A stretch of 40,488 nucleotides of DNA from an uncultured Clostridiaceae bacterium (GTDB lineage Bacteria; Bacillota; Clostridia; TANB77; CAG-508), in contig CAKNOI010000011.1 in NCBI GenBank assembly GCA_930990125.1, forward strand, positions 1-40,488, read 5' to 3'. The notes beneath the pieces were generated by a model. It had not been told where the DNA came from. It saw only the letters and a list, made by a program, of their open reading frames with translations, and did not search any database. Shown piece after piece: positions 36,739 to 40,488 of this stretch. How positions within the stretch are numbered: the first letter of the stretch is position 1; every line of letters begins with the position of its first letter. The position numbers and the translations under genes were made by a program.

Positions 36739-38469
36739 ATGAAATCGAACCATAAAAGCAAAACAAGATTTTTGCTATATATACTAATTATTTCTATTTT
36801 ATTTACCGTTCTTTTGCCATATAGTGGCACTTTTTCCGCAACCAATGAATATACACAAGAATTAAAATCTGGAATTGATAGTTTTCCAGAAAGTTATAGA
36901 CCATATTTAGAGAAACTTTCTGAAATTTATCCTAATTGGACATTTGAAGCTTATTACACTGGAATTGATTGGGATGAACTCGTAGAAAAAGAAACCAATA
37001 ATTGCGACAATCCTAAAAATAGAATATATAAAACAAGAAAAGATTCTTGGAAAGATAGTTGTGTAACACCAGAAAATGGGGCTTCCTATGTTTGTGCCAG
37101 TCCACAAATTATTGCATACTATATGGATCCAAGAAATTTCTTAAATGAGATTAATATTTTTGAATTTGAAGAGGTATCCTTTAATCCACAAATCCATACA
37201 GTAGCTAATGTAAATAAAATATTACAAGGTACCTTTATGGAAAATGCAAAAGTAACCTATACCAATAGTGAAGGAAAAGAAGTAACTACAGGATATGCAG
37301 AAATATTAGTAGAAGCAGCAAAAGAAACCAATTGGAGTCCTTTCCAAATTAAAACCAAAATAGTACAAGAAGTAGGCTCTTCTGGAAGTGGTTCTGTTTC
37401 CGGACATTATGTGGCAGCAGATGGCACAGTGTATGATGGCTATTATAACTTCTTCAATTATGGAGCATATGATACCGGAGATGCTATTCAAAATGCGCTA
37501 GAATATGCCAAACGAGAAGATGTGAATTGGAATAATCCATACAAAGCTATTGTAGAAGGAGCTAAGCTAATATGTAATTCCTATATTAATGCCGGACAAA
37601 ATACAGCATATTTTTTCAAGTTTGATGTAGTAGGAACAAGCATTTTAGAAACAGGAAAAACACAAACAGTAAATGCAAACACGATGTTTGCACATCAGTA
37701 TATGACAAATATAGAAGATCCATATAATCAATCCAAAGGATTATACAACACTTATGTAGCCAATGGACTTATTTCACAAAAAATGAATTTTATTATTCCG
37801 GTATATAACAATATGCCAGATGTAGTAAAAAAACCAACTACATTAACAGAACAAGATGGAGATTTATATTATGTGAATGTGAAATCAACACCTCTTTCTA
37901 TAAGGCAAGAACCGTCTTATACGGCAAATGTAGTAGCAACAATAGAAAAAGATGAAGTTGTTGCTATGTTAGAACAAGCTTGCAAGGTGGAAGGAAATGC
38001 TGTTTGGAATAAAATTAAATTAGAAGACGGAACAGTAGGATATACAACAGATGAATATATTACGTCTTGTAAAAACGGAAGCACACATGGATTTAACATA
38101 ACAGCTTCTAGTAAAGAAATAGTAGCAGCACCAGAGGTAACCGTTTCGGACATTCAAGCAAAACAAAAAGGAGCTGTTGTTAAGAATACAGAAGGAAAAA
38201 CGATAACTGGAGAAACTTTAGTAGGAACAGGAAATACGGTAACCATAGATAAAACAACTTACACCATTGTAAAACTAGGAGATGTTAATGGGGATGGCAA
38301 GGTTACAGTAAATGATTCGTTACGTATTCTAAGATATGCAGCAAAAGAAATCACCTTAAAAGGAGTATACTTAAAAGCAGTAGACGCTAATCAAGATGGA
38401 AAATATAATGTAAAAGATTCGCTAAGAATTCTAAATTTTAAAGCGAATATTTCAGATATTTTACTATAA
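36739..38469 (+). CDS. Exported N-acetylglucosaminidase with SH3 and C-terminal dockerin-type module
   Basis: This is a peptidoglycan hydrolase of 576 aa that likely cuts the glycan strand after N-acetylglucosamine. A signal peptide (about residues 10-33) is followed by a LytD-like region (LSEIYPNWTFEAYYTGIDWD). The GH73-type glucosaminidase domain follows (about 190-350, with PFQIKTKIVQEVGSSGSG and GYYNFFNYGAYDTG). A bacterial SH3 domain (about 375-440, SIRQEPSYTANVVATIEKDE) and a short linker lead to a dockerin-type end. The dockerin has two calcium loops, DVNGDGKVTVND (from residue 515) and DANQDGKYNVKD (from 549). GAGGGAG precedes the ATG. It heads a cluster with a cadherin-like protein and a dockerin-bearing amidase. 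Confidence 0.9.
   Translation: MKSNHKSKTRFLLYILIISILFTVLLPYSGTFSATNEYTQELKSGIDSFPESYRPYLEKLSEIYPNWTFEAYYTGIDWDELVEKETNNCDNPKNRIYKTRKDSWKDSCVTPENGASYVCASPQIIAYYMDPRNFLNEINIFEFEEVSFNPQIHTVANVNKILQGTFMENAKVTYTNSEGKEVTTGYAEILVEAAKETNWSPFQIKTKIVQEVGSSGSGSVSGHYVAADGTVYDGYYNFFNYGAYDTGDAIQNALEYAKREDVNWNNPYKAIVEGAKLICNSYINAGQNTAYFFKFDVVGTSILETGKTQTVNANTMFAHQYMTNIEDPYNQSKGLYNTYVANGLISQKMNFIIPVYNNMPDVVKKPTTLTEQDGDLYYVNVKSTPLSIRQEPSYTANVVATIEKDEVVAMLEQACKVEGNAVWNKIKLEDGTVGYTTDEYITSCKNGSTHGFNITASSKEIVAAPEVTVSDIQAKQKGAVVKNTEGKTITGETLVGTGNTVTIDKTTYTIVKLGDVNGDGKVTVNDSLRILRYAAKEITLKGVYLKAVDANQDGKYNVKDSLRILNFKANISDILL
38269..38422 (+). repeat. Dockerin-coding repeat, copy 1
   Basis: This stretch encodes both calcium loops of the glucosaminidase dockerin. 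It aligns without gaps to 40335-40488 in the amidase gene, and the encoded proteins share a run of 23 identical residues across the first loop. The DNA match is close enough to suggest a fairly recent duplication or gene conversion. Confidence 0.75.
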
Positions 38470-38530
38470 AAATTGTAACTTTTTCTATTCCAGTATGGTA
38501 TAAAAAATAGTTACAAGGAAAGAAGGAAAA

Positions 38531-39346
38531 ATGAAAAAGAAAAGTATAGTTTGGATTGTCTGTATCATGCTTCTTTTAGGAATGTTTGCAATACCGGTAT
38601 ATGCTATTCCTAATAATAATCCGGCATTAAAGGAATTAAAAAGTAATGTGGGAGAATTAAATCCTAAATTTGATTATCTTACAATAGACTACAGTATTGT
38701 AGTGCCAAGTGAAACAGAAAAGATAGAAATTACAGCAGTTCCGGAAGAAGAAACATCTACCGTAACAATAACAGGAAATGAAAATTTGGAGCTAGGCCTA
38801 AATACCATAGAGGTTCTGGTAACAGCCGAAGATGGAACTAGTAGAACTTATACCATTCGTGTAACAAGAGGAGATGTAGAAAAAGCAAATACCAACCTAA
38901 AGAGTTTGACAATAGGAGATTATAACTTGGTTCCAGAATTTAATAATGGAATTACAGAATATGTACTTCCTATTCCAAAAGATGTTACTTCTATAGAGGT
39001 AGAGGCTGTTCCGGAAAGCGATGGCGCGACGGTACAGATAGAAGGACAAGAAAACATTACTGGAAATGACCAAATGGTAACTGTACTTGTAACTGCCGAA
39101 GACGGCATTACCCAAAAACAATTTAACATTATTGTGACAAAAGGAGAAACGGAATCTGAGAAGTGGCAAGAAGAAGGACAAGTTGGAGAAAACACACAAT
39201 CTACAGAGAAACCTAACTTTTGGTTTGCCAAATATATGGCATTTGCAATAATTGTAGTAATTGTACTTGTTATGCTGTTACGCATTATACAAGTAAAAAG
39301 GGCAAAACAAGAAAAGGTAAAGGAGAAGACAGATGACAAGAACTAA
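38531..39346 (+). CDS. Membrane-anchored protein with two cadherin-like beta-sandwich domains
   Basis: This 271-aa protein has a signal peptide (about residues 4-25). Two tandem cadherin-like (PF12733-type) domains occupy about 28-115 and 119-202. Each ends in the typical motif VLVTAEDGTSRTYTIRVTRG or VLVTAEDGITQKQFNIIVTK. A polar linker (about 205-230) leads to a C-terminal membrane helix (YMAFAIIVVIVLVMLLRII) and a Lys-rich cytoplasmic tail. It thus stands outward on the cell surface. AAGGAAAGAAGG lies just upstream of the ATG. It lies between two dockerin-bearing hydrolases and overlaps the second by 14 bp. A scaffold or receptor role is inferred from position; no classical cohesin signature is seen. 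Confidence 0.85.
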   Translation: MKKKSIVWIVCIMLLLGMFAIPVYAIPNNNPALKELKSNVGELNPKFDYLTIDYSIVVPSETEKIEITAVPEEETSTVTITGNENLELGLNTIEVLVTAEDGTSRTYTIRVTRGDVEKANTNLKSLTIGDYNLVPEFNNGITEYVLPIPKDVTSIEVEAVPESDGATVQIEGQENITGNDQMVTVLVTAEDGITQKQFNIIVTKGETESEKWQEEGQVGENTQSTEKPNFWFAKYMAFAIIVVIVLVMLLRIIQVKRAKQEKVKEKTDDKN

Positions 39347-40488
39347 AGCAAGTATATTACTTATACTAATTACTTTTATACTGTATTTTTTGGTTGTTTC
39401 TTTTGGAAATATTAGTTCGGCAACAGAAAAAGATAAAATTGTAATTGCACTAGACCCAGGACATGGAGGTATACAACCAGGAGCTGTAAATGGAAGTTTA
39501 CTAGAAAAAAATTTAACATTAAAGGTGGCAAATTACATAAAAGAATACTTAAGCGAATATGATAATGTAGAAGTAGGACTAACTCATAATGGACTACCAA
39601 GCAATCAGGAATTAGAAATATTTGATAGAGGCGTGTATGCAAGAAACATTAATGCGGATATGTTAATTAGTTTGCATTTTAACTCTAGCGATAGCAGTAG
39701 CCCTAACGGGGCAGAGGCTTATGTGACAGCCTGCAAAGCACTTCCTAAATATAATGAAAATTGTACGGCTCTTGCTAATAAAATATTAAATAATATTGCA
39801 AAACTAGGAATTAAAAATAACGGAGTAAAAACAAGAGTTATTACAGGTGATAAAACCGATATTTATTATCCAGGATGCCCAGCAGACTGGGATGGACCAA
39901 TACGTTATGCTATGAGAGGTACCATGATTGACAATGGTGTAACATCGGTTTTGAAAGATGGTAAAAAGGTAAAAGTATCTGCAGACACCTCTGCAGATGT
40001 CAAAAATGGTGAAGGAGTACCAGGAATATTAATAGAGCATTGTTATATCAAAAGTGATGCAAAATACATTGATTCAGAGGAAGACATTAAAGCACTTGCA
40101 AAAGCAGATGCAGATGGAATTATAGAACACTTTGGATTAACAAAGGAAAAAGAAGTAACAGTACAAAAAGATGAAGAAGGTAAACTAGTACTAACAGGAC
40201 CAGAAGTAGGAAAAGCAGAATTAATAAAAAATATTTCAGGGGCCACAGTAACCACACAAGATGGAAAAGCGGTAGAAGGAGATACTTTAGCAACAGGATA
40301 TAAAGTAAAGGCAGGTAATAAAACCTACCAAGTAGTAAAACTGGGAGATGTGAATGGAGACGGCAAGGTTACGGTAAATGATTCACTTCGTATTTTACGA
40401 TACTGTGCCAAAGAAGTAACTCTAGAAGGGGTCTTCCTACGAGCAGTTGATGCAAATAGAGATGGCAAATATACGGTAAACGATTCGT
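39333..40488 (+). CDS. Exported N-acetylmuramoyl-L-alanine amidase with dockerin-type module (partial, runs off window)
   Basis: This is a zinc amidase (Amidase_3) that cuts the bond between muramic acid and the stem peptide. A signal segment is followed by ALDPGHGGIQPGAVNG with a zinc His at about 44. Glu in LLEKNLTLKV (about 57), His in LISLHFNSS (115) and catalytic Glu in ILIEHCYI (235) follow. The 120-residue gap between His115 and Glu235 is longer than usual and holds an insertion (GCPADWDGPIRYAMRG). A linker leads to a dockerin module with DVNGDGKVTVND from residue 339 and a second loop, DANRDGKYTVND. The window ends inside that loop. AAAGGAG precedes the ATG, which overlaps the upstream gene by 14 bp, so translation is probably coupled. 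Confidence 0.9.
   Translation, partial: MTRTKASILLILITFILYFLVVSFGNISSATEKDKIVIALDPGHGGIQPGAVNGSLLEKNLTLKVANYIKEYLSEYDNVEVGLTHNGLPSNQELEIFDRGVYARNINADMLISLHFNSSDSSSPNGAEAYVTACKALPKYNENCTALANKILNNIAKLGIKNNGVKTRVITGDKTDIYYPGCPADWDGPIRYAMRGTMIDNGVTSVLKDGKKVKVSADTSADVKNGEGVPGILIEHCYIKSDAKYIDSEEDIKALAKADADGIIEHFGLTKEKEVTVQKDEEGKLVLTGPEVGKAELIKNISGATVTTQDGKAVEGDTLATGYKVKAGNKTYQVVKLGDVNGDGKVTVNDSLRILRYCAKEVTLEGVFLRAVDANRDGKYTVNDS
40335..40488 (+). repeat. Dockerin-coding repeat, copy 2 (to window edge)
   Basis: This stretch matches 38269-38422 of the glucosaminidase gene along its full visible length. It continues past the window end, so the full extent cannot be measured. Confidence 0.75.

Follow-up and report, generated by a model that had tools for sequence, protein, structure and literature searches.

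Cohesin–dockerin pairs are mainly regarded as tools to digest food polymers. With the cellulosome, the system described here shares dockerin-tailed enzymes, cohesin receptors, sortase-anchored cohesins and a module ahead of the dockerin. Dockerins on peptidoglycan hydrolases, as found here, have also been described, and a 'lyticome' was proposed after lysozyme activity had been found in the Ruminococcus champanellensis cellulosome, alongside a rumen survey (both as cited in PMC6403190). In those cases, the hydrolases are in, or associated with, cellulosomal scaffoldins, whereas the present system has a dedicated operon, its own membrane-anchored cohesin and no cellulosome. Single-cohesin proteins with a C-terminal membrane helix were reported in Lachnoclostridium sp. 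MSJ-17, C. cibarium and H. luporum, and their partners are stated to be unclear for two of these organisms (PMC11557425). The membrane-held monovalent cohesin is common to both cases, but here gene order and fusion link it to a glucosaminidase–dockerin. A further parallel is SagB–SpdC of Staphylococcus aureus, in which a membrane-held GH73 glucosaminidase frees newly made peptidoglycan and determines glycan length (PMC12272431; NF052642). SagB is held by the CAAX-protease-like membrane protein SpdC, whereas the enzyme described here would be held by dockerin–cohesin docking. Wall hydrolases with dockerins and single cohesins anchored in the membrane are already known, each separately. A literature search that covered few subscription papers returned related work but no description of the conserved operon.

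The window analysed here, a stretch of 40,488 nucleotides from an uncultured Clostridiaceae bacterium, closes with an operon of three ORFs on the same strand, the last two sharing a 14-nt overlap (Table 1). They encode a glucosaminidase–SH3–dockerin protein, a secreted protein that is anchored in the membrane and carries two PF12733 domains, and an amidase–dockerin protein. ORF and Pfam analyses confirm the three-gene cluster of the initial annotation, with a membrane-anchored two-domain protein between two hydrolases. Its statement that both enzymes end in a dockerin can be read directly for the glucosaminidase, while the contig ends within the amidase dockerin. Chance is ruled out for this architecture because relatives show the same one.

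Table 1. Features of the operon that closes the window (positions in the window).
Feature	Position	Strand	Basis or details
SagB/GH73-like glucosaminidase, secreted, 576 aa	36739..38469	+	ORF, Pfam, NCBIfam, solved structures
Glucosaminidase modules			Signal peptide, catalytic region (aa ~41-370), SH3_3 (386-440), linker/X-like module (~446-512), dockerin
Glu211 codon, probable catalytic acid	37369..37371	+	Invariant QE; opposite autolysin E 'ETG'
Glucosaminidase dockerin	38275..38430	+	Pfam; two 12-residue calcium loops: DVNGDGKVTVND, DANQDGKYNVKD
Middle protein, 271 aa	38531..39346	+	Signal peptide, two PF12733 cadherin-like domains, C-terminal membrane helix, short basic tail; without cohesin
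Amidase_3 N-acetylmuramoyl-L-alanine amidase, secreted, X-like module and dockerin	39333..40488	+	385 aa, open at contig end
Amidase dockerin, incomplete	40341..40484	+	83% identity to glucosaminidase dockerin across 48 shared residues

Pfam searches of the glucosaminidase retrieved Dockerin_1 (residues 513–564, 9e-10) and SH3_3, and no glucosaminidase family. The protein matched the NCBIfam SagB family (NF052642) at 6e-11, far under the family's cut-off, as well as the solved GH73 structures of the Atl glucosaminidase (1.5e-9) and autolysin E (3.9e-8). Using a glucosaminidase family profile, SagB (6fxp/6u0o) was matched at about 4e-18. By sequence homology, it is a SagB homologue with a SagB-type GH73 catalytic domain, not a member of the curated NF052642 family. 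Its Gln-Glu pair at residues 210–211 is invariant across 16 relatives, with the Glu aligned opposite the 'ETG' of autolysin E, and, by analogy with GH73 enzymes, this Glu211 is the probable catalytic acid. No SpdC-type, CAAX-protease-like partner was recognised by eye among the ORFs of the window. The amidase matched Amidase_3 (PF01520, 1e-30) and Dockerin_1 (residues 337–384, 7.7e-9), and the zinc-site motifs DPGHGG, LEK, SLHFN and IEHCY were read in its translation. Both dockerins are of type I, with two F-hand calcium loops in ~57 residues (PF00404, ligand positions read). The glucosaminidase dockerin has both loops intact; the amidase dockerin spans 48 of the 57 profile positions, the rest lying beyond the contig end, with the second loop present and the last helix missing.

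The initial annotation had suggested looking for cohesins elsewhere in the genome, and four were found in the 1.38-Mb assembly (97.9% complete), on contigs C12, C19 and, twice, C1. Each protein has one cohesin match, and none of the four is a multi-cohesin scaffoldin. These are single-cohesin anchors, not the classical scaffoldins that the initial annotation had considered, and their pairing with the window dockerins is unproven. The genome differs in this respect from those with cellulosomes, as it does in its nine dockerins, which are found on the glucosaminidase, the amidase, two LRR, two transglutaminase-like and two Ig-repeat proteins and one protein cut by a contig end, but on no recognised plant-polysaccharide enzyme. 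The two dockerins of the window stand apart as a class, with 83% identity to each other and at most about 38% to the others. Every other dockerin class of the genome adjoins its own cohesin; next to the window genes, no cohesin was found in this assembly. The gene at the end of C1 encodes a longer paralogue of the middle protein, with a signal peptide, a cohesin (the COH module), two cadherin-like domains (CAD) and a membrane helix (TM), and lies directly downstream of another dockerin.

Given that Pfam returned no match for the COH module of this C1 paralogue alone, the family alignment and the predicted fold were used. Eight of the 13 members match PF00963 (best 1.4e-8), and the top matches for the model of the COH module of a homologue, L100, are cohesins (2jh2, TM 0.76 by target, Z 15.4). 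A PDB profile search with the module retrieved cohesins only, at E ~0.05, a result that is consistent with this identity, not proof of it. By profile and predicted fold, the COH module of the stalk paralogues is a cohesin. The nearest solved folds, the NagJ-type cohesin modules of C. perfringens (2jh2, 2w1n), are likewise non-cellulosomal, but they are fused to secreted glycosidases and not to a membrane stalk.

Related gut Clostridia contain more than 30 loci that encode, in this order, a cohesin-LPXTG protein, a sortase, a glucosaminidase–dockerin (GLU-DOC) and a COH-CAD-CAD-TM protein, and two loci (L105 and L112) encode GLU-DOC-COH-CAD-CAD-TM as a single polypeptide. Family-wide, cohesins are present in 120 out of 145 genomes and dockerins in 136. 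The order glucosaminidase, cadherin-like protein, amidase is retained in two relatives, G005 and G026, as the initial annotation had asked of related genomes. G005 encodes a glucosaminidase–dockerin, a CAD-TM protein, an amidase–dockerin and a 467-aa protein, the N-terminus of which matches the window genome's own cohesin on C19 (E 0.003). This N-terminal domain, together with 31 similar domains, reached 96% in hhalign against the cohesin profile and 58% against Big_2, and the outcome was unchanged when the Ig-like N-terminal domains were hand-grouped into two subsets. In the type-A stalk proteins, the N-terminal domain has diverged and could instead be an ordinary Ig/Big_2-like domain, and not every window-type stalk protein carries a recognisable cohesin. 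Searching the window genome with the 467-aa protein revealed no orthologue, only the known paralogues and the weak match to the C19 cohesin. Among loci that are mutually related and were selected by similarity to the glucosaminidase, with three reclassified by hand and L077 and L078 counted in, the presence of a dockerin tracks that of a cohesin, or a cohesin-like domain, at the N-terminus of the stalk (87/93 vs 0/4, Fisher 6e-5).

Domains, homology, gene order, fusions and predicted fold make it probable that a cellulosome-like, non-cellulosomal system tethers the SagB-like glucosaminidase and its partners to the membrane or wall via cohesin–dockerin pairs; binding, partner choice, site of action and role in growth are inferred. 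The hydrolase complex of the initial annotation is retained in this form, since relatives pair non-cellulosomal cohesin–dockerin hydrolases with an adjacent membrane-anchored cadherin-like protein, but not with the middle protein of the window as the anchor. It is unlikely that the docked hydrolases instead form a bacteria-killing lyticome that lyses neighbours or uses their walls as food. The concept and dockerin-bearing cell-wall hydrolases are already in the literature (PMC6403190), and an amidase and a glucosaminidase would be synergistic. However, the membrane-anchored stalk is short, the cohesins are monovalent with no multi-cohesin scaffoldin among them, the enzyme is SagB-like and the cluster is common in a reduced-genome family, so a housekeeping role fits better.

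Even less likely is that the dockerins are merely calcium-binding stabilising modules without cohesin partners, the co-occurrence in relatives concerning other paralogues. The lack of a cohesin adjoining the window genes and the window-type stalk proteins without a recognisable one would agree with this. Against it, the glucosaminidase dockerin retains both calcium loops, the two window dockerins are near-identical, as a shared receptor would predict, dockerin loss coincides with loss of the stalk's N-terminal domain and the L105 and L112 fusions join the two halves of the proposed pair.

The middle protein matches PF12733 Cadherin-like twice (1.9e-24), the sole Pfam family above the cut-off. 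No PF00963 match was found in it, and the genome cohesin searches gave none on the window contig, C11. Its predicted fold retrieved Rib, cadherin and Ig-type domains and no cohesin among the best 50 matches, which is not proof taken alone, and hhalign between the cohesin and cadherin-like profiles gave 0.2%. In homologues, these PF12733/Rib-cadherin stalk repeats lie downstream of a separate, true cohesin. In a tree, the middle protein belongs to a supported five-member clade without cohesins, in which L077 and L078 adjoin a glucosaminidase and an amidase without dockerins; it was, therefore, kept for something other than docking. The middle protein belongs to the stalk family but lacks a recognisable cohesin; it is described here as a stalk that lost its cohesin and is probably not a cohesin itself. 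Its likely role is that of an accessory or regulator conserved together with the hydrolase pair, not that of the dockerin receptor. That its two cadherin-like domains bind both dockerins and anchor both enzymes, as the initial annotation had proposed, would suit an outward-facing, membrane-anchored beta-sandwich protein encoded between the enzyme genes in an order kept in G005 and G026, but is contradicted by the separate cohesin of the homologues, the fold and profile comparisons and the persistence of its clade beside dockerin-free hydrolases, and is very improbable.

Under the preferred reading, tethering by cohesin–dockerin pairs, this family of gut Clostridia with small genomes would have a widespread surface system, with the window operon as one of its branches, that holds the cells' own peptidoglycan hydrolases by such pairs and not through a membrane helix or repeats that bind the wall. 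The SagB-like glucosaminidase, here together with the amidase, would be secreted with its C-terminal dockerin and dock on a monovalent cohesin, borne on a membrane-anchored cadherin-like stalk or a sortase-anchored LPXTG protein. The docked enzyme, kept at a constant distance from the membrane, may trim new glycan strands or release them, or it may split the septum. The receptor for both window dockerins would most likely be the product of a fourth gene, with a cohesin-like domain, two cadherin-like domains and a membrane helix, located after the amidase in G005 and presumably beyond the contig end in the window genome. More tentatively, the family may possess a cohesin–dockerin machine dedicated to its own wall growth, in which the cohesin-bearing stalk would replace an SpdC-like partner and position the strand-releasing glucosaminidase; the amidase would add a second docked activity, and the stalk without a cohesin would serve as a regulator. 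If cohesin–dockerin pairs do place housekeeping wall hydrolases at the membrane, a large group of reduced-genome uncultured gut Clostridia would gain plug-in control of peptidoglycan cutting, and many 'orphan' monovalent cohesins would receive natural partners.

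The final three genes of the window, itself an entire contig (G000:C11), lie on a common strand, with genes 2 and 3 overlapping by 14 nt, and the architecture given for them in the initial annotation is correct. The product of gene 1 is a glucosaminidase of the SagB/Atl/autolysin-E type; it is secreted and carries an SH3_3 domain and a C-terminal dockerin. Gene 2 encodes a protein with a signal peptide, two cadherin-like domains (PF12733) and a C-terminal membrane helix, and gene 3 an Amidase_3 enzyme whose dockerin is interrupted by the contig end. A gene for a PF06541 membrane protein (putative ABC-transporter type IV) lies immediately upstream. 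Relatives of the glucosaminidase were also retrieved from faecal records labelled 'Bacteriophage sp.', MT836697.1 among them, one of which spans 93% of the protein, including the dockerin region; these represent either phage lysins or mislabelled bacterial contigs.

The system is not a cellulosome, since no multi-cohesin scaffoldin was found in the genome (1.38 Mb, 97.9% complete) and none of its nine dockerins was found on a recognised plant-polysaccharide enzyme. Wall hydrolases bearing dockerins and the 'lyticome' idea have been described (PMC6403190), as have membrane proteins with a single cohesin and unclear partners (PMC11557425). We found no description of this conserved dedicated operon in the literature searched.

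Cohesins are present elsewhere in the genome: three were detected with PF00963 (contigs C12, C19 and C1), and a family profile added one more at the opposite end of C1. Two of these proteins carry LPKTG near the C-terminus and a third IPQAG followed by a hydrophobic tail, and sortases adjoin the cohesin genes at C19 and C1:61.9k. The fourth is related to the middle protein but longer: a cohesin stands between its signal peptide and its two cadherin-like domains, which are followed by a membrane helix. Its gene lies directly downstream of a dockerin-bearing ORF that is itself interrupted by the contig end. C19 terminates within a second glucosaminidase, just short of the expected dockerin start, and in relatives the C19-end and C1-end pieces (ends of regions L013 and L015) form a single glucosaminidase-dockerin gene, indicating that a second cluster was probably split by assembly. 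The window contig likewise ends within a dockerin.

With profiles built for this analysis, we annotated 20 regions of related genomes, together with 80 loci taken from GTDB genomes. More than 30 loci showed the order [cohesin-LPXTG]-[sortase]-[glucosaminidase-SH3-Big_2-dockerin]-[cohesin-cadherin x2-TM]. The last two are a single ORF at L105 and L112, possibly a self-docking chain. Named records were uncultured Clostridia MAGs, including one Candidatus Merdicola; a two-gene form, with a cadherin-like domain within the glucosaminidase, was seen in Lachnospiraceae and other Clostridia and Bacilli. Family-wide, cohesins occur in 120 of 145 genomes and dockerins in 136. In Lachnospiraceae and relatives (L124, L142, L117, L106), the cohesin(-like)-cadherin membrane protein extends into the cytoplasm with a long acidic tail that may connect it to the cell interior.

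The coupling of dockerins to cohesins was tested among loci with a judgeable stalk gene (that of the cadherin-like membrane protein). Dockerin-bearing glucosaminidases accompanied a stalk whose N-terminal domain is a cohesin or cohesin-like at 87 of 93 loci; all four dockerin-less ones accompanied a bare stalk (Fisher 6e-5, a guide only, because the loci are not independent). The script alone gave 84, 6, 0 and 2; L129, L133 and L146 (stalk gene masked by a second glucosaminidase match) and L077 and L078 (stalk gene upstream) were added by hand. Two of the six exceptions, L079 and L090, appear frame-broken or truncated.

The initial annotation had raised, as a testable idea, a cellulosome-like surface complex with the middle protein as its anchor. 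Its paralogues carry the identical type of two cadherin-like repeats downstream of a cohesin. For L100, a homologue that has a cohesin, the predicted structure (pLDDT 86) best matched cohesins (2jh2, TM 0.76, Z 15.4 over 120 residues); that of the middle protein (pLDDT 85) matched Rib, cadherin and related domains. In the repeat tree, the middle protein groups with full support with cohesin-less proteins from G005 and G026 (related genomes), L077 and L078. This clade is nested among cohesin-bearing ones, so that the cohesin was most simply lost, with the root of the tree a midpoint guess. The L077 and L078 stalks adjoin a glucosaminidase and an amidase with Big_2 repeats and no dockerin. A stalk retained with nothing to dock argues against the middle protein as a dockerin receptor.

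Coordinates of cluster variants and neighbouring features
Feature	Location	Remark
Window-like cluster (cadherin-like TM protein, glucosaminidase, amidase)	L077:3263-9284; L078:9029-12763 and beyond	Many Big_2-like repeats replace both dockerins
Fused glucosaminidase-dockerin-cohesin-cadherin x2-TM ORF	L105:10010-13486; L112:9884-13348	Two rabbit-gut MAGs
Related glucosaminidase, then 215-aa cadherin-like TM protein	L083:268-3747	Many ChW-like (GW..W) repeats replace the dockerin
Second dockerin class of this genome	L014:3965-14563; L016:8800-11193	LRR-type and transglutaminase-like proteins, with a sortase and a single-cohesin protein in their midst
Third dockerin class of this genome	L011:12168-18700; L012:5285-6076	Long Ig-repeat surface proteins, dockerin N-terminal, then LPKTG cohesin protein
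PF06541 gene	window:35660-36553	
By-eye look-alike of PF06541 protein	L011:8129-9049 (C12)	Near amidase and dockerin proteins

The two window dockerins share 83% identity over 48 residues and are unlike the remaining dockerins of the genome; every class but theirs has members beside a cohesin. Members of the second class share a modified second calcium loop. In G005, the three window genes are followed by one for a 467-aa protein whose N-terminal domain is cohesin-related and which also has a membrane helix and a pair of cadherin-like domains, and a comparable protein is also encoded downstream of the amidase in G026. We expect that the same gene, encoding a candidate receptor for the two window dockerins, probably lies past the end of the window contig.

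Cohesin-dockerin binding is calcium-dependent. Together with SpdC, SagB frees newly made peptidoglycan from its membrane anchor and determines how long the glycan strands are (PMC12272431). Our best guess is that the cohesin-less stalk serves the glucosaminidase and amidase as a putative accessory protein or regulator. The dockerin may substitute for a direct membrane or wall anchor of the enzyme, and the stalk would determine the height of the docked enzyme.
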